NCBI GenBank assembly: GCA_944324425.1
Contig: CALUWE010000010.1
Coordinates: 1-58,528 of the forward strand
From: Candidatus Gastranaerophilales bacterium
Lineage (GTDB): Bacteria; Cyanobacteriota; Vampirovibrionia; Gastranaerophilales; Gastranaerophilaceae
Length of the DNA stretch: 58,528 nucleotides
Reading direction: 5' to 3'
Shown here: in pieces, positions 22,607 to 32,543 of the stretch
How the letters are laid out: the number at the start of each line of letters is the position of its first letter
Position numbering within the stretch: position 1 is the stretch's first letter
Program-made: the position numbers and the translations under genes
Notes under the pieces: model-generated
The model's database searches: none
What the model saw: the letters and a program-made list of their open reading frames with translations, nothing else
Told to the model about the DNA's origin: nothing

Positions 22607-23896
22607 TTAAATTTCCTTTATCGTTATTTTATAACATTTTTTGTCGTTTTTATCTACCCTTAATTTTTCACTCATAGAAACGCCTGCTATATAGAAAATT
22701 TCGTTATTTGCAGCAATTAAGGGAATTTTGTTTCTTAATTCTGACGGGATTTTTTTCTTTATAAAATAAGTTTTTAATTTTTGAGGCGTTTTTGACCCGA
22801 AAGGAGTAAAAACATCCCCTTCTTTTCTTGTTCTTATCACAAAATTTTCTTTTTCAAAAAGTTTTATAAATTTGTTTTCTTCGAAAATATCAGGGGTTTG
22901 AACTTCTTCTAAACTTATTTCATGATTTAAAAATTTATTTTTTTCTTTTAATTTAATTTCATTTTCTGTAATTTCTTTTTTTGAATTTAAAATGTAAATT
23001 TCATTATTATAAATTTTTAAAAACAAATTTTTCCCGATTGAAATTTTATTTTGCGGGCTATTTTGAATAAATTTAACAAGTTTATCTATTGTTTTAAAAT
23101 CTCTTGTTTTTAAAATTCCCTTTAGGTAACGGTTTATAATTTCATATTGAATTTCTTTTGTTTGATTTAAAAACTTTTCTCTGTTAATTTTTTCATTTTT
23201 TATAATTTGTTTTTGAATTTTTAAAATAACATCATCCACAATTTTTTGATTCATAATGTTTAAATTAATGAGGTTTGAAATTGAATTAATTGTTTCAGGG
23301 TTAATTTCTTTCATTATGGGAAGAATTTTTTCTCTTATTAAATTTCTTTTATATTTTGTATCAAAATTTGATTTATCAATTGCAAAAATAAGCCCGTTTT
23401 CATTTGCATATTTTTCAATTTCTTTTCTTTCAACTTCAATTAAGGGCCTTAAAAATAAATCTCTTTTTTTTGGAATTGAATTAAGCCCGCTTGGGCCTGT
23501 GCCTTTAATTAACCTATAAATTAAAGTTTCAACGTTATCATTTTTATTGTGTGCTAAAAAAACGGCATCAGCTTTGAATTTTTTGGCACAATCTTCAAAA
23601 AATTTATACCTTAGTTCTCTTGCAATGGTTTCTGTTTTTTTAACATTTTTTGGTAATGTTTCAGAATAAAATTCTATGTTTTTATCTTTTGCAATTTTTC
23701 TTGCAAGTTCTTCATCCTTTTTGGAATCAGCCCCTCTCCAATTGTGGTTAAGATGAATTGCAACAACTTTTATATTTTTAATTTTCGATAAAATGTGAAG
23801 TAAAACTGCACTGTCCACCCCACCTGACAACCCAAGCAAAATAGTTTTATTTTCCAAATTGTTTTCTTTTATAAAATTTTTAACAAGATTTATCAT
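22607..23896 (-). CDS. tilS: tRNA(Ile)-lysidine synthase
   Basis: This enzyme adds lysine to C34 of the CAU-anticodon tRNA-Ile so that it decodes AUA, an essential step. The PP-loop motif LLGLSGGVDSA is at residues 21-31, followed by HLNHNWRGADS and FLAHNKNDNVET. The length of 429 residues includes the C-terminal substrate-binding domains. The first 17 bases overlap the LdpA-like gene and hpt follows one base after the stop. AUA decoding matters in this AT-rich genome. Confidence 0.95.
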   Translation of the reverse strand: MINLVKNFIKENNLENKTILLGLSGGVDSAVLLHILSKIKNIKVVAIHLNHNWRGADSKKDEELARKIAKDKNIEFYSETLPKNVKKTETIARELRYKFFEDCAKKFKADAVFLAHNKNDNVETLIYRLIKGTGPSGLNSIPKKRDLFLRPLIEVERKEIEKYANENGLIFAIDKSNFDTKYKRNLIREKILPIMKEINPETINSISNLINLNIMNQKIVDDVILKIQKQIIKNEKINREKFLNQTKEIQYEIINRYLKGILKTRDFKTIDKLVKFIQNSPQNKISIGKNLFLKIYNNEIYILNSKKEITENEIKLKEKNKFLNHEISLEEVQTPDIFEENKFIKLFEKENFVIRTRKEGDVFTPFGSKTPQKLKTYFIKKKIPSELRNKIPLIAANNEIFYIAGVSMSEKLRVDKNDKKCYKITIKEI

Positions 23897-24800
23897 TTAA
23901 TAATTCTTTTGTTTTTCTTACAAATTCTTTTGCAGTTTTTAATTTTTCATCATCAGGCAAGTTTTCTGTCATTTTTCTGATAAAACTTCCAAAACCTATT
24001 GAACAATTTAAACCTGCTTTTTTGGCTAATTCTGCCGTATATTCATTGCAGCCGCCCGATAATATGACATCATAACCTAAACTTTTTACAAATAAACCGA
24101 ATGCAACGGTTTCAATTGTGCCCGCTATTGTATTATTTGCGCCGTTCATTGAATTTCCGTCCGCTTGCACCACAAATTCTCTTTTTCCGGATAATTCCTT
24201 TAATTTGGCTAAAATTTTCTCTGTTTTTGAATTTGAAAAAAAAGTTCGGTTAAAACATACGCTTATTTTTGAATTTTTGGCGCAAGTTGAACGGTCAAGG
24301 GCTTTTATGATTTTTTTAAATTCTTCTTTTATAATCTTTTTATCTTTGATTGAAATGTGAATTTCAACCGTGTCTAATTTAACATTTTTTTCTAAAAGCT
24401 CAAAAAAATCTTCATCCGTATCATCATAAATTTGAATTGCGTTATATTCGCAGGCTTTTTTGCAGTGTGAACAGCCGATGCATTTTGATTTATCTATATT
24501 TGGCGGCTCAATTGCACCTTCAATACAGACATCTTTACATTTTTTGCACATTTTGCAAATAAGAGGGTCTATTTTTGCTTTTTTGCCGTGGGTATCACCT
24601 ACAATTGCGTAAGATGTGCAAAAATCAAAATCATCTAAATTTAAACCGTTTTCAATTAAGGCTTCCTGAATGCAAGGAGTTGTGATTGGCGATGTATCAA
24701 AAATGTCTGCGCCTGCTTTTGCCCAAAGTAAAACAAGGCTCTTCACCTTGTTTTTATCTTTGTTTCCTAAACCTGTAATTAGTTTAAATTTTCCGTTCAT
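23880..24800 (-). CDS. LdpA-like iron-sulfur protein (cyanobacterial light-dependent period family)
   Basis: The protein opens FKLITGLGNKD and has AGADIFD near residue 29. It then carries two [4Fe-4S] motifs: C82-x2-C85-x2-C88-x3-C92 and C107-x2-C110-x2-C113-x3-C117. VEIH is at 145-148, QADGNSMNG at 212-220 and SGGCNEYT at 248-255. This order matches LdpA, a redox-sensing clock-input protein of Synechococcus whose QTDG..MSG block and C-terminal GG-N-T are characteristic. The assignment rests on remembered family features, not a search. The length is 306 residues (LdpA about 350). It overlaps tilS by 17 bases and follows lysC by 14. A TIM-barrel-like redox enzyme is an alternative. Confidence 0.7.
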   Translation of the reverse strand: MNGKFKLITGLGNKDKNKVKSLVLLWAKAGADIFDTSPITTPCIQEALIENGLNLDDFDFCTSYAIVGDTHGKKAKIDPLICKMCKKCKDVCIEGAIEPPNIDKSKCIGCSHCKKACEYNAIQIYDDTDEDFFELLEKNVKLDTVEIHISIKDKKIIKEEFKKIIKALDRSTCAKNSKISVCFNRTFFSNSKTEKILAKLKELSGKREFVVQADGNSMNGANNTIAGTIETVAFGLFVKSLGYDVILSGGCNEYTAELAKKAGLNCSIGFGSFIRKMTENLPDDEKLKTAKEFVRKTKELLNDKSC

Positions 24801-26096: not shown

Positions 26097-27809
26097 TTAA
26101 TTTTCCTTAATTTTTATTAAATTGTTCTTAATTGCTAACACTTTGGAGTCAACTGCCGCTTCAGTGTGCAGTGAGATTATTTTATCACAAATATTTATTG
26201 TTTCATCAATTAAGTCATAATTATTACTTTTTGTGATGATTCCTTCGTTTACAAGAGCTCTTAAATATAAAATATCACCGTCTTCTTTTAAATCTTCCTG
26301 TTCTTCAAATTCTTTTAATATATTTTCAGCTTCTTCAATTTTGCCCATTTTCACAAAACATTCTATTTTGGCATATTTTGCAATTTTATAATCGGGGCTG
26401 ATTTTAAGTGCTTCATCCAATTTGTCCAAGGCCTCAAAATATTCGCCGCTGTTTAAAAGAAGAACGCCGTACATCAACAAAATTTTGATGTCTTGTTTGT
26501 TATTTATATAAGCGCTTCTTATTTTTCTTATTGCGTTTTGAACATCGCCTGCTTTCAGATATGCATTAGCAAGGCTTATTTTGGCATCTATGTTATCAGG
26601 GTTGTATTCAACCGCTTTTTTCCAATATTCTAGCGCTTCTTCCTTGTTTCCCAAAAGTTCATAGCATGATGCTATATTTAAGTACATGTATCCTGAGTTT
26701 ATATTGCTTGAAACCGCTTTTTTATAATATTGAATTGCATTTTCATAGTCATTTTTTCTTAAGTAATATTGCCCTAAATTGTAAAGAGCAATGGTATGGT
26801 CGGGTTTTATTTCAATTGTTTTTTCAAGCATTTTGGCCGCTTCTTCTTCGTTGTTTGTTTTAAAATACGAGATGGATAAAGCGTAATATGCAAGGTGGTT
26901 ATTGTTATCAAGCTCTGCCGCTTTGTTTAGCTTTTCAAAAGATTCTTCCCATTTTTGAAAAAATTGAAATGAAACACCCCAAGAATAATAAAATTGGGAA
27001 TTAACCTCACATTCTTTTAATGCGTTCGGGTATACGGCAAGGCATTCTTTTTCATTTTTTAAGTGCAGCCAGCTTTCTGCAAGTGCAATATAGCATTCGG
27101 GACGTTTCGGGTTTATTGCAATGGATTTTTTTGCATATTTTATTGAATCTTTAAATTGTCCCGTCAAAAATGAAATTGAAGCCAAATGGTAATAAGCGTC
27201 AGAATGAAAAGGGTCAAGCGAAACCGCTTTTTTAAGTTTTTCAAGCGCATTGATATAATCTTTGCACTGAGAACATAAAACCCCCCACAAGAACCAGCCT
27301 TGTGTGTTACCGGGGTTTATATGGCATGCGGTTTTAAAATCCGTGTGTGCTTCTTTTATTTTGCCAGTTTTGGCATAAAAAATCGCGCGGTTAATATATG
27401 TTTGAGAATTTCTCGGATTCAGCTTTATTGAAATTGAAAAAGCCTTTTTTGCTTCTTCAAAATCTTCCATTTCGGAATAAACAGAGCCTAAAATTTGGTA
27501 CGCCTTTGCATTTTCGTTATCAAGCTTGGTTGCTTTTTTTAAATAGTTAAGCGCCAGTTCATATTTACCGTCTTTTGCAAGAACAATTGCAAGATTTACA
27601 TAAGAGTCTGAATTTGCATAGGGCATTTCTATACTTTTTTCCAAAAGCTCAAGTGCTTTTTTTTCATCGCCCGTATCCAAAAGTTTAATGCCCCAGTTCA
27701 TATAAGCATAAGAAGGCATTGAAACCTCGCCGGCGTTTTCTTTATAGAGGTTGATAAAATCGTCAAGCCTGTTTATTTTATTTACCAGTTTTTTAATAAA
27801 ATCCAGCAT
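26097..27809 (-). CDS. TPR-repeat protein, about 570 residues
   Basis: This is a helical scaffold made almost entirely of tetratricopeptide repeats, with a dozen or more units of the type A-x-Y-x2-L-G-x3-Y-x-K-x-G-x2-E-x-A. A short basic helix (MLDFIKKLVNKINRLDDF) precedes them. I place the start at the ATG at 27809, because TTGATA-17-TATTAT ends 7 bases before it. An in-frame ATG at 27854 would add 15 hydrophobic residues. There is no signal peptide with that start. It lies downstream of a Tic20-like membrane protein and another TPR gene, so a joint scaffold-membrane role is plausible. Confidence 0.85.
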   Translation of the reverse strand: MLDFIKKLVNKINRLDDFINLYKENAGEVSMPSYAYMNWGIKLLDTGDEKKALELLEKSIEMPYANSDSYVNLAIVLAKDGKYELALNYLKKATKLDNENAKAYQILGSVYSEMEDFEEAKKAFSISIKLNPRNSQTYINRAIFYAKTGKIKEAHTDFKTACHINPGNTQGWFLWGVLCSQCKDYINALEKLKKAVSLDPFHSDAYYHLASISFLTGQFKDSIKYAKKSIAINPKRPECYIALAESWLHLKNEKECLAVYPNALKECEVNSQFYYSWGVSFQFFQKWEESFEKLNKAAELDNNNHLAYYALSISYFKTNNEEEAAKMLEKTIEIKPDHTIALYNLGQYYLRKNDYENAIQYYKKAVSSNINSGYMYLNIASCYELLGNKEEALEYWKKAVEYNPDNIDAKISLANAYLKAGDVQNAIRKIRSAYINNKQDIKILLMYGVLLLNSGEYFEALDKLDEALKISPDYKIAKYAKIECFVKMGKIEEAENILKEFEEQEDLKEDGDILYLRALVNEGIITKSNNYDLIDETINICDKIISLHTEAAVDSKVLAIKNNLIKIKEN

Positions 27810-27816
27810 AAACAGT

Positions 27817-27845
27817 ATAATACTATTCATTTTAAAAACTATCAA
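27817..27845 (-). promoter_or_regulatory. Promoter with -10 seven bases before TPR gene start
   Basis: On the reverse strand TTGATA (5/6) and TATTAT (5/6) are separated by exactly 17 bases. The -10 ends 7 bases before the ATG at 27809, predicting a leaderless transcript. Confidence 0.6.
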
Positions 27846-27863
27846 CCTTGTCAACAGGTTTAA

Positions 27864-28274
27864 TTACAATATTTTCTTTGCAATATCTGTTATATAAGGC
27901 ACATAGGGCAATTTACCGAAAATTGCAATAATTGAAAGATAACATAAGAAAAGTAATATAAGATAGTTTATAAAATTCATTGTGTTAAATACAGGTGTTG
28001 CAAAAAGAAAAATGTGCAGTTTTAAGAAAAGCCCGCCAATAAAAGGTATGCTTGTTAATAAACCTATAAAAATGCTGTATGCCAAAGATAAAATTGCATA
28101 TAAAATTGACAATACAAAAGACTGAACAATATTACAGGTTAAATATCTGCTCATTGGTTTTTTTATAATCAACATGCTTATTATAAGCCAAATCATGCCG
28201 ATAAAACCCAATGTTAAATATGAACCGGTTGCAAGAATTCTGTCTGAAATTGTAACGTCGGTTTTATGCTGCAT
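27864..28274 (-). CDS. Four-helix membrane protein, Tic20-like
   Basis: It has 136 residues with about four hydrophobic segments. The segment KKPMSRYLTCNIVQSFVLSI and the C-terminal GKLPYVPYITDIA resemble the N-x-S-x-F-I-R-F-N-x-M-Q-A block and the G-x-x-P-x-I-P-x-I tail of cyanobacterial Tic20 relatives. Plastid Tic20 is a protein-import channel component; the function of bacterial homologues is not settled. The start overlaps the upstream TPR gene by 11 bases, and a second TPR gene follows. The resemblance is by eye, and a DUF4870-type membrane protein is the main alternative. Confidence 0.5.
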   Translation of the reverse strand: MQHKTDVTISDRILATGSYLTLGFIGMIWLIISMLIIKKPMSRYLTCNIVQSFVLSILYAILSLAYSIFIGLLTSIPFIGGLFLKLHIFLFATPVFNTMNFINYLILLFLCYLSIIAIFGKLPYVPYITDIAKKIL

Positions 28275-29316
28275 TTTTTATTTTTCCTTCAATGAATTCA
28301 TTTAAGATGTCTATGTAGATAAGTGTAATTTCAGCATTGTCTTTGGTGGATTTCATTGCCAATCTGTAATATTCTATTGCGCTTTTCATATCTGAATTCA
28401 ACATATATGCGTTAGCTATGAAAACATAAACCATAGTTTTGTTTTCGGTTAATTCCAAACTTCTTTTGTATGTGTCAATTGCTTCTTCATACCTTTTTTC
28501 GTTTAAAAGAAGATGTGCCAAAAGCATATAGGCATTTGATTTTTCGGGTTCCAATTCAATTGCTGTTTTATAGTATCTGATAGCGTTGTCGAAATCTTTT
28601 TCATCCGAATGAAATATTGCTCTGCATACCCATGCGGAGTAGTAATCGGGTTTAATTTCAATTGCTTTTTCAAAGAATTTTTCGGCTTCTTTTTTCTTGT
28701 TCACTTGTACATAAAGATTTGCAAGGGCGAGCGCCACTTGTTCGTTATCTTTTCTTATTTCAAGTGATTTTTTGTAATTATCTTCCGCTTGTCTGAAATC
28801 ACCCATTCTTTGACACAATGTGCCGTAATTTGCAAGACATTCGGAATTATCGGGCTCAAATTGAAGTGCGCGAATGAAAAACCCTTTGGCGTCAGGATAT
28901 TTGCCGTTATCCGAGTATAAAATACCCATGGCATTAAAAATTGCGGCATTGTTCATTCCTGTTTTGACTGCCAGTTTATATTCTTTGTTTGCGTCGTCAA
29001 AATCGTTGATTTCGGCGTAGACATTGCCTAAATTATAGTGAAGAAGACTGTTGTCAGGCTCAATTTCGATGCCTTTTGTATAAAATTTCAAAGCTTCTTT
29101 AAATTCTTTTGCATAAAATTTGATGCTGCCGGAATTTAAAAGTGATTGTATATCATTTTCATCTTTCTTTAAAATTTCCTGATAAACATTAAATGCAGAA
29201 ACAAAATCCTGTTTATCAATGTATAAATCGGCAAGAGCCCTGTAATTATTAAGATTATTCGGGTCTTTTTTTATTTCTTCGATTAAATTTTTAATTTTAT
29301 TCTTGTCTTCACTCAT
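28264..29316 (-). CDS. TPR-repeat protein, 350 residues
   Basis: About nine consecutive tetratricopeptide repeats fill the chain after a short charged N-terminal helix. Consensus-like units include ALKFYTKGIEIEPDNSLLHY and AIRYYKTAIELEPEKSNAY. There is no signal peptide or membrane segment, so it is likely cytosolic. Its last 11 bases overlap the Tic20-like membrane gene, suggesting coupled synthesis and perhaps a complex at the inner membrane face. TPR proteins bind partners; no catalytic residues are visible. Confidence 0.9.
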   Translation of the reverse strand: MSEDKNKIKNLIEEIKKDPNNLNNYRALADLYIDKQDFVSAFNVYQEILKKDENDIQSLLNSGSIKFYAKEFKEALKFYTKGIEIEPDNSLLHYNLGNVYAEINDFDDANKEYKLAVKTGMNNAAIFNAMGILYSDNGKYPDAKGFFIRALQFEPDNSECLANYGTLCQRMGDFRQAEDNYKKSLEIRKDNEQVALALANLYVQVNKKKEAEKFFEKAIEIKPDYYSAWVCRAIFHSDEKDFDNAIRYYKTAIELEPEKSNAYMLLAHLLLNEKRYEEAIDTYKRSLELTENKTMVYVFIANAYMLNSDMKSAIEYYRLAMKSTKDNAEITLIYIDILNEFIEGKIKNAA

Positions 29317-29400
29317 ATAATAAGCCCTTATTTATTTGAATATTTTAAATTATACCAAAATGCACCCGATTTGGCACGATTATTAAAAATGTTTTTATTA

Positions 29401-29413: not shown

Positions 29414-30391
29414 ATGAAAAATGTCTTATTTATTATTGACGAAGTTGAATATAAGTATTTTGAGTTTAACCTTCTTGTAACAGATTTTTGGCTGATAAAA
29501 ACTTTTCTTGAGGAAGGATATAAGGTTGATATTACAACAAAGCATGAATTGTTTTTGGATGGTAATAAGCCGTTTTCGTTTGTATATTCGGCAAGTGTAA
29601 AAAATAATAATATTTTTAAATCCGATGAGAGAATCAAAAATTGCTTAAATAATTATGATGTAATTTTTACTCGTCCGGATCCTCCGGTTGATATTGATTT
29701 TATTAATGCAACCTATGTTCTTGATTATTTGGATGAAAAAGTTTTTTGTATAAATTCTTACAGAGCATTAAGAGATATAAACGAAAAATTATATATAAAC
29801 AGGTTCCCTTCGCTTGCTCCTAAAAACATTGTTACTTCCGATGAGAAACTAATCAAGGAATTCTTGTTTCAAAATGATGAAATTATCATAAAGCCGTTAA
29901 ATAAATGTTTTTCATCAGGTGTTTTTTATCTTAATTCTAAGGATAAAAACATTAATGCAATAATATCAAGCGCAACCGACAACGGTAAAACAAAAGTTAT
30001 GGTTCAGGAATATTTAAAAGGAATTGAAAAGGGCGACAAAAGGCTTATTTTTATTTCAGGCGAAATTATGGACTATGCAGTTACAAAGGTTGCCACAAAC
30101 AATGATTTTAAGTTCAACGAGCATAAAAAAGAAAATTTAATTTTGGGAAATTTGACCCCAAAACAAAAAGAAATGGGAAAAATTATCTCAAAAACGCTGC
30201 TGAAAGACGGCGTTTATATGGCCGGTTTGGATGTAATTGATGATAAAATTATAGAAATCAATATCACGAGTCCATGCTTTTTTATTAATGAAATTAATTC
30301 GCTGTACAATGTGAATTTTGAAAAAATCATTTTTCAAAAAATCGAAAAACTTATTGAAAATAAAGAAGAAAGGCGACTTTTAAAATGTTGA
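29414..30391 (+). CDS. Glutathione synthetase (GshB)-like ATP-grasp ligase
   Basis: This ATP-grasp protein follows the GshB plan. TRPDPPVDIDFINATYVLD in the N-terminal half corresponds to the GshB DPPFD block, followed by NSYRALRDINEKLY. The ATP-grasp core has VMVQEYLKGIEKGDKRLIFI, then LDVIDDKIIEINITSPCFF near the C-terminus. The length of 325 residues matches. The usual R-G-N-L-x-x-G-G loop reads ENLILGN, a divergence that may alter the substrate. No gshA is in the window, so glutathione synthesis is not proven. Confidence 0.75.
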   Translation: MKNVLFIIDEVEYKYFEFNLLVTDFWLIKTFLEEGYKVDITTKHELFLDGNKPFSFVYSASVKNNNIFKSDERIKNCLNNYDVIFTRPDPPVDIDFINATYVLDYLDEKVFCINSYRALRDINEKLYINRFPSLAPKNIVTSDEKLIKEFLFQNDEIIIKPLNKCFSSGVFYLNSKDKNINAIISSATDNGKTKVMVQEYLKGIEKGDKRLIFISGEIMDYAVTKVATNNDFKFNEHKKENLILGNLTPKQKEMGKIISKTLLKDGVYMAGLDVIDDKIIEINITSPCFFINEINSLYNVNFEKIIFQKIEKLIENKEERRLLKC

Positions 30392-30437: not shown

Positions 30438-32543
30438 ATGAATACTATGAGAGTTAATAAATTAATACTACCGAATAATTTGGCAATGCATGGCGATGCC
30501 TTGAACCTCGAGAGGCAAAAGCTATACCAAAGTGCGAAACATAAGCACAATAGTATAGATAAATATAACCAATTCAGACCCGCAGAGCGTGTAAGCTTAG
30601 GCGGGTCTGAACTTTTAAAGGATAATTTGACTGCGCAGCCCGATATGACCGCTTCAGTTCCATCTTTTACCGGAAAAGAAAAAGTTATTAAAACTACTGC
30701 CGAGATGGTTAAGGGAATAACCAAAGAAGCAATAAATAAAGGCGCAATGGAAGATATTCCCAAATGGGCCGACAAAATGGGCGGGGCAAATTTCTTTAAG
30801 GGACTTTTAAAGAGCGTTGATAAAAGTGAAACCTTTTTTGAAGCCGTTACGGCACTTGTTATCGCAGGCATGTTGAAACCTATCTGTGTTTTAGCAATGC
30901 CCGGGGCTGAGATGGAAGATAAAGAGATGTCTGCAACCAAAAACGCTGTTTCTGCTTTTATTGGTTTTGGATTATCAAATCTTATTTTGGGGCCTTTTTC
31001 GTCTGCGGTTAATAAAATTGTAAAAAGCGTAGATTCAAAAGATCCGACTAAATATATTAAAGATATAAATTATGTTGACGCAATTAAAAACGAAGAATTA
31101 ATTACACTTGCAAACGGCACAAAATTAAAAAGCACGCTCGGGGATGCTTTTAAAACAACGTATAAAAAACTTCCCGATTTAGCTGTTTCGCCAATGAAAG
31201 CTGCGCTTACAATTGCGCTTACACCTTATATTCTCAAATTTTTATTCAAGAAAGATAAAGCGGGGAAAAACTCCAAAAAGAAAAATCCTGTTGAAAACCC
31301 GATGAATAAAATGACCGTTATGAATACAATAAGAATGAACTCAAACAATGTTCATCAAGCTCAGCCGGCATTCAGCGGTTCGGAAAATAAGCAAAAATCC
31401 GCCATTTCATTTACGGGCAATGTTAAAAATTCAACCACTTCATTTAAAGGTTCTCTTGCTTCAGAGGCTGCCGATAATGCTCAGGACTTTTTTGCTTCCG
31501 GAGTCAGAAAGGTAATTGAGAAGGCAGAAAAAGATGCTCCTTCAAAAGGCTTTAAAAAACTAAAAGAACTTTATAACGCCCTTTTTGATGAGCACATTGC
31601 AAAGGGAATAGGCTGGATTGCTCCAAGAAAAATGGGACAAAAACTTGTTGAAACAACGGCAAGATTTGAAAAACCTTCTGCAAGGTGGTCGGATTTGGCA
31701 TCTTTTGCAATTACATATTTTTATGTAAGCAATACGGCAAAATCAGAAAAGATTGAGGAAGAAAGAAAACTTCCTTTGATGATAAATAACGTTATGGTTA
31801 CTGCTGCATCTTCAACGGCCGCATTCTTAATTGATAAATATACCGATAAGCCTATGGAAAACCTTTTAAGGAGTTATTTAAAACACCGTGATGCAGATCT
31901 TTTCAATAAATCTAACAGTAAAATAGTTGATGCACTAAAAATTGCGCTTGATGAAGGCGCAGACAGCATTGATTTGGATGCTATGAAACGTCATTCGGAT
32001 GAGCTTTTATCCGGCGGATGGGATAATTTTACTGATGCATTGAAAGATTCTATTACTGCTCTTAAGAATAATGATGTTGTTCAAAGAGCAATAAAAGAAA
32101 ATATTATTGAAAATGACGATATTGCAAAACTCGCGGCTTCAGGCTTTGAAAAACAGGCAAAATCCATATACGGCAATATTTCAAAAGCAAAATCGCTTAC
32201 AGTATTCACATTAACCGTAAGATTTTTGGTTACCGTTTTGATGACACCTGTTATAGGACAGGTAGTTGCGCTTGTTAACAAAAAATTAGGCAGGGGTGAG
32301 TATGCAAAAGATAATAAACAAAATCAGCCTGCAAATGTTCCTTTGCCGGGGTCTGAAACTTTCGGTATGAAAGATTATATGAAAACCTTATCGGGAGTAA
32401 CAATTCCGAATTCTTCATCACAAAACGGCGCAGATAATCTTTTTAATACAAATGCTCAAAACCAGTCTTCATCTATTGAACAAAAAGCGGAAGATAAAAA
32501 AGATGACGACGATGACGATGACAAAGATGATGATGATGATTAA
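30438..32543 (+). CDS. Unknown 701-residue membrane-associated protein with FxG motifs and poly-Asp tail
   Basis: No family is recognised. It carries four short Phe-x-Gly segments in Ser/Pro/Ala contexts: PSFTGK (FTG 77-79), PAFSGS (312-314), ISFTGN (325-327) and TSFKGS (336-338). Hydrophobic stretches lie near residues 135-150, 168-185 and 250-275, and others near 410-470 and 595-620, so several membrane segments are likely. The extreme C-terminus is KDDDDDDDKDDDDD. Similar FxG segments occur in the AAA+ and HNH proteins of this window. The start lacks a ribosome site and is uncertain. Confidence 0.78.
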   Translation: MNTMRVNKLILPNNLAMHGDALNLERQKLYQSAKHKHNSIDKYNQFRPAERVSLGGSELLKDNLTAQPDMTASVPSFTGKEKVIKTTAEMVKGITKEAINKGAMEDIPKWADKMGGANFFKGLLKSVDKSETFFEAVTALVIAGMLKPICVLAMPGAEMEDKEMSATKNAVSAFIGFGLSNLILGPFSSAVNKIVKSVDSKDPTKYIKDINYVDAIKNEELITLANGTKLKSTLGDAFKTTYKKLPDLAVSPMKAALTIALTPYILKFLFKKDKAGKNSKKKNPVENPMNKMTVMNTIRMNSNNVHQAQPAFSGSENKQKSAISFTGNVKNSTTSFKGSLASEAADNAQDFFASGVRKVIEKAEKDAPSKGFKKLKELYNALFDEHIAKGIGWIAPRKMGQKLVETTARFEKPSARWSDLASFAITYFYVSNTAKSEKIEEERKLPLMINNVMVTAASSTAAFLIDKYTDKPMENLLRSYLKHRDADLFNKSNSKIVDALKIALDEGADSIDLDAMKRHSDELLSGGWDNFTDALKDSITALKNNDVVQRAIKENIIENDDIAKLAASGFEKQAKSIYGNISKAKSLTVFTLTVRFLVTVLMTPVIGQVVALVNKKLGRGEYAKDNKQNQPANVPLPGSETFGMKDYMKTLSGVTIPNSSSQNGADNLFNTNAQNQSSSIEQKAEDKKDDDDDDDKDDDDD

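Follow-up and report, generated by a model that had tools for sequence, protein, structure and literature searches.

A short Tic20-like membrane protein and its TPR gene neighbour in a non-photosynthetic cyanobacterial lineage

Tic20 is the core of the TIC translocon of plastids, where its exact role is debated (PMC11628618; PMC13399175). Paulus et al. (2024) described the protein as occurring only in cyanobacteria and in eukaryotes that contain plastids (PMC11628618), and a 2024 review treats the cyanobacterial homologues as being of unknown function (PMC12176269); in the literature that we searched, no paper named Tic20 together with Melainabacteria, and none of the papers listed in a search on non-photosynthetic cyanobacteria contained the protein. 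The DNA analysed here (the window) is a stretch of 58,528 nucleotides from contig 10 of a 1.84 Mb genome, and it encodes a small membrane protein with a TPR gene on either side. In a single-protein search of genome contigs, the matched relatives (n=3) were Candidatus Gastranaerophilales and Galligastranaerophilus, which are gut lineages on a non-photosynthetic branch of the cyanobacterial phylum. The locus raises the question of whether Tic20 occurs in such hosts and, if it does, what relation it bears to the genes beside it.

Three genes on the minus strand

Three minus-strand ORFs had been described at this locus, and all three are there (28264-29316, 27864-28274 and 26097-27854). They are transcribed in the order 350-aa TPR gene, 136-aa membrane-protein gene and larger TPR gene, and the features are as follows.

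27864..28274, minus strand: short integral membrane protein, very probably of the Tic20 family, 136 aa (from ORF, profiles and AlphaFold2 model)
28264..29316, minus strand: upstream soluble TPR solenoid, 350 aa, conserved partner gene (from ORF, model and neighbourhood counts)
28264..28274, minus strand: overlap of 11 bases between the TPR stop region and the Tic20-like start region (from coordinates)
26097..27809, minus strand: downstream TPR protein, 570 aa when started at the third Met (from relatives' lengths)
29349..29377, minus strand: sigma-70-like promoter candidate, GTGCCA, 17 nt, TATAAT with preceding TG, about 33 bases upstream of the TPR start

The 11-base overlap claimed by the earlier note is thus present, and this arrangement of the sequence suggests translational coupling of the upstream TPR and Tic20-like genes. 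For the downstream TPR gene the longest ORF (26097-27854, minus strand) begins at a TTG and encodes 585 aa; counted from the third Met, the length is the 570 residues already assigned to this protein, which matches the 570-572 aa of two relatives in the genus. The promoter candidate is to be read against a count of sigma-70-like sites in the region that is close to the shuffled expectation.

Kinship of the membrane protein

The likeness to Tic20 was originally proposed from two motifs, N-x-V-Q and G-x-x-P-x-x-P-x-I, and both are found in the 136-aa protein, as C-N-I-V-Q-S and G-K-L-P-Y-V-P-Y-I. The NIVQS block and the GKLPYVPYI tail, together with a charged loop (KKPMSR) after helix 2, belong to a protein that AlphaFold2 models (pLDDT 87.6, pTM 0.76) with helices at residues 9-20, 24-37, 43-73, 79-92, 101-118 and 128-135. 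A single-sequence search matched 55 of 58 relatives, once each, and a family profile of 47 rows found matches in 182 of the 194 genomes of the class (Vampirovibrionia), some of those outside the order Gastranaerophilales having two or three matching places; given this distribution, the ORF is not a product of chance.

Pfam and NCBIfam scans of the single window protein gave no usable match, TIC20 included, and the curated cut-off of PF16166, a limit of detection set for a model based on cyanobacterial and plastid proteins, was reached in none of the genomes of 58 relatives. Among the 47 family members, however, 27 match PF16166 individually at E values up to 0.1 (best 7.6e-6). Aligned with hhalign, the 47-member family matched a cyanobacterial Tic20 profile (29 sequences, PF16166 matches) with a probability of 97.5-98.0 and E values of 5.6e-12 to 1.5e-13, class members from outside the order matched it with a probability of 98.8-99.0 and E values of 7e-17 to 8e-18, and the controls, consisting of reversed and 30 block-shuffled profiles, gave probabilities of 1.3 at most. 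Reciprocally, matches of the family HMM in cyanobacterial genomes overlap PF16166 loci wherever a genome is listed for both (for instance G165:C35, G121:C22, G059:C1 and G113:C1).

The profile alignment with cyanobacterial and plastid Tic20 (PF16166; 7xzi_B, 7vcf_W, 8z9y_B) is collinear and preserves the order of the helices, and the two groups have in common an RF(N/H)xxQ(A/S)I block and a G(R/K)YxEIPxIS tail. These motifs are bridged by class members from outside the order, which carry FFRFHFLQSI and GKYAEIPFISN..RQQMR, the cyanobacterial counterparts being FIRFNAMQAI and GRYAEIPTISDA..MQVR. As read from the same alignment, cyanobacterial Tic20 contains a stretch of about 35 residues between the first two membrane helices that is absent from the short family. 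Because this insert is absent and the Pfam cut-off is missed, the protein is best regarded as belonging to a short, new subfamily of the Tic20 group and not as a standard PF16166 member, from which it also differs in its length of about 136 aa, its non-photosynthetic hosts and its pairing with a TPR gene.

Structural comparisons point the same way. A search of PDB sequences returned four matches, the top three being the Tic20 chains 7xzi_B, 8z9y_B and 7vcf_W, at weak E values of 0.04-0.3. When the membrane protein was modelled alone, a check that had been suggested for it, the best fold matches in VIA-align were the three Tic20 chains (Z of 8.2, 8.0 and 7.8, with the next chain at 4.0), a Z of about 8 not being decisive for helical bundles according to the tool's own note; Foldseek alone ranked Tic20 chains 1, 2 and 4 at a non-significant E of about 2.4. 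Profile-profile alignment, reciprocal genome search, PDB sequence search and fold comparison, tests that range from weak to strong, all agree, and since DUF4870 also fails as a competitor, homology is accepted: there is little room for doubt that the membrane protein is a Tic20 homologue of a short, divergent subfamily.

A better match to DUF4870 or to another family had been named beforehand as the outcome that would speak against Tic20, and the comparison went against DUF4870. HOTT/DUF4870 proteins, including the MamF-like magnetosome proteins, are small helical membrane proteins, reported to be distant relatives of Tic20 (PMC11628618), and it could be argued, from the reported union of DUF4870 and Tic20 in one superfamily (PMC11628618) and from the lack of a meaningful Pfam match to the single protein, that the window encodes a generic four-helix or DUF4870 protein whose motifs resemble Tic20 by chance. 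This is extremely improbable, as the profile, reciprocal and fold tests all pick Tic20, hhalign finds no significant match between DUF4870 and the short family (probability only 1.3-3.9), and two genomes of the same taxonomic family (G013 and G164) encode an above-cut-off DUF4870 protein in one place and a Tic20-like protein in another. DUF4870 (PF09685) was found neither in the window's own genome nor among the 47 family members (0/47), and at this sensitivity it was rejected as the better family. The shallow profiles used here do not recover the Tic20-DUF4870 link that published, deeper profiles report; a distant relation may thus still exist, and deeper profiles could reveal a three-way superfamily. 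Slightly more credible, and nevertheless very unlikely, is a small transporter or ion channel with a function unrelated to protein targeting. Plastid Tic20 does make ion-permeable channels in liposomes (PMC3203047), but each transporter family was matched by at most one or two members, and the structures most like the window protein are subunits of translocons.

The TPR genes on either side

Throughout the order the upstream TPR gene is adjacent to the Tic20-like gene at 78 of 83 loci, corresponding to 71 of 76 distinct genomes after removal of seven genomes present twice, and the two genes mostly overlap or are separated by no more than 50 bases; the TPR gene is shorter or split at three loci (L111, L117 and L127). 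The pair is found in at least four contexts, rpsF-ssb-rpsR, rpiB-rsfS, gshB/aspK-ldpA-tilS and flhB-fliA/metY, the gene names other than those tested with Pfam having been given by eye or by similarity to eye-named sequences. The Tic20-like gene follows rpsF-ssb-rpsR at 13 of 41 loci of the order. Orthologues of the upstream TPR protein scored 447-502 bits in the 16 genomes searched, as compared with about 203 bits or less for other TPR proteins, and the protein is modelled as a 20-helix solenoid (pLDDT 95) with no membrane segment. The asparagines in the TPR repeats were considered as a sign of peptide binding and dropped, since they belong to the general TPR consensus.

Some genomes, from families f6 and f7 and genus g9, lack the TPR gene and keep the Tic20-like gene, and the TPR protein therefore cannot be an obligate subunit. 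The best TPR matches in genomes without the neighbour score 124-181 bits, which is the ordinary TPR range, so the gene appears to be absent and not relocated. Outside the order the neighbour of the Tic20-like gene is usually hisS, and the upstream TPR gene was not found beside cyanobacterial Tic20 in the 1.5 kb flanks of 19 genomes. Because the pairing is confined to the order and is not universal among genomes with the Tic20-like gene, the upstream TPR protein is considered an order-specific, dispensable partner. A different arrangement is seen in family f8 (L170, L171, L173 and L181), where the order is hisS - tic20 - ParA-like ATPase; past the ATPase comes a TPR gene in L170 and L173, and TPR-like matches lie there in L171 and L181.

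The downstream TPR gene adjoins the Tic20-like gene only within the genus (the window, L092 and L093), and in two near relatives (L095 and L102) it is one gene away, separated by a HAD-phosphatase-like protein named by eye. The idea that both TPR genes form a single conserved sandwich was rejected on account of this local distribution; of the TPR-Tic20-TPR order whose conservation the earlier note proposed to check, the upstream half is conserved, and the downstream half is not.

The downstream TPR protein (26097-27854, minus strand) exceeds the cut-off of the NCBIfam MamA model (NF040959), with 267.1 bits against 200, a score that sums six repeat stretches and is probably inflated by them. 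The match is worth recording beside a membrane protein of the Tic20/MamF type.

Descent and possible function

In a tree of 59 rows, cyanobacterial Tic20 forms one clade (100/100), the order occupies one side of a branch (92/91), and the other class members lie between the order and cyanobacteria; having no outgroup and an unsettled bootstrap, the tree is only suggestive of vertical inheritance. The proximity of rpsF to cyanobacterial tic20 in 10 of 19 genomes (1.5 kb flanks), beside the rpsF-ssb-rpsR context in the order, gives weak support for shared ancestry, because gene order differs between cyanobacteria and the order. Judged from these sequence comparisons, the membrane protein is probably the Tic20 of the non-photosynthetic class, vertically inherited from a common ancestor with photosynthetic cyanobacteria. 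Retention of Tic20 across a non-photosynthetic class implies that its ancestral job was unrelated to thylakoids or plastids, and suggests that the protein predates photosynthesis and plastids and does not depend on either. If the class is counted among cyanobacteria, then the new range of Tic20 is an extension within the phylum, not beyond it.

A larger claim, that the locus follows the receptor-plus-channel logic of protein import machines and could be their antecedent, is not supported in that form: the TPR gene is missing from some Tic20-keeping genomes and was not found beside cyanobacterial Tic20 in the flanks read, and Tic22 (PF04278) was found in 0 of 20 relatives. A YlmG/YGGT protein is present above the cut-off (G000:C24:7972-8181), which is not diagnostic of a TIC-type complex because such proteins are widespread in bacteria. 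Tom70 and MamA, from organelle import and magnetosomes, respectively, likewise combine a soluble TPR solenoid with a membrane component, but the likeness extends to the TPR repeats alone and does not establish either TPR protein of the window as an orthologue. Rather than a proto-TIC complex, the short Tic20 appears to represent a lineage that is sister to cyanobacterial Tic20 and has a partner specific to the order.

What the pair might do can be approached through its better-known relatives. MamF-like proteins, which are distant Tic20 homologues, are required in Magnetospirillum if proteins carrying C-terminal hydrophobic domains are to be targeted to the membrane (PMC11628618), and the simplest mechanism that these could have in common with plastid Tic20 would be that of a membrane-embedded insertion or assembly factor. 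Starting from the parts that were computed, namely the Tic20 homology, the fold, the distribution, the conserved pairing and the soluble TPR protein, we infer TPR-Tic20 binding, a topology and an insertion function, the last by comparison with the MamF-like proteins and with plastid Tic20. The Tic20-like protein and the TPR solenoid would be made together in this order; the TPR protein would be cytoplasmic and bind hydrophobic or extended segments of particular new proteins; it would then dock on the cytoplasmic face of the Tic20-like protein, at the N terminus, the charged loop and the C-terminal helix; and the Tic20-like protein would help to insert or assemble these clients in the cytoplasmic membrane. 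Taken as a whole, this model of a vertically descended Tic20 of the class, served by a TPR adaptor that delivers clients to a Tic20-type insertion factor, seems to us about evenly balanced between right and wrong.

The housekeeping neighbours (ribosomal genes, hisS, pth and rsfS) form a counterpoint to the adaptor model, as co-location with such genes could reflect growth-linked expression alone. There may be no physical partnership at all, with Tic20 serving housekeeping membrane-protein biogenesis and expressed along with genes for translation, and the TPR gene sharing the promoter of Tic20; the recurrence of rpsF-ssb-rpsR, pth, rsfS and hisS across lineages, and of rpsF in cyanobacteria, would fit such an account. 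This is unlikely, since the TPR-Tic20 pair persists while all other neighbours change, and its persistence and mostly tight spacing suggest that the two genes share more than a promoter. Of similarly low probability is that the Tic20-like protein merely anchors a TPR scaffold organising some envelope process, such as division, polysaccharide or stress assembly, with no handling of clients. TPR solenoids are generic scaffolds, and an order-specific, dispensable pairing is what an adaptor added onto an older membrane protein would give; yet the known functions of the superfamily, in plastid Tic20 and the MamF-like proteins, concern protein targeting (PMC11628618), and several lineages keep Tic20 without the TPR gene. 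Returning to the adaptor model, its broadest form, in which Tic20 already served membrane-protein insertion or targeting in the common ancestor of photosynthetic and non-photosynthetic cyanobacteria and the gut Gastranaerophilales pair is a live, plastid-independent adaptor-and-insertase device that reveals this ancestral role, is put forward tentatively, as a possibility somewhat short of even. The conserved TPR partner provides a concrete handle on which proteins the pair binds and inserts.

Other genes of the window surround the three described here. Divergent from the TPR gene in this genus is a glutathione-synthetase-like ATP-grasp enzyme (29414-30391, plus strand), and at 30438-32543 (plus strand) is a 701-aa protein with zero Pfam matches and an aspartate-rich tail (KDDDDDDDKDDDDD), shorter homologues of which are found at the same position in L092, L093, L095 and L102. 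At 23880-24800 (minus strand) lies an LdpA-like 4Fe-4S protein (LdpA_C, PF12617, 34 bits against a cut-off of 22.2), a member of a family named for the light-dependent circadian period in cyanobacteria that is encountered here in a non-photosynthetic gut lineage.
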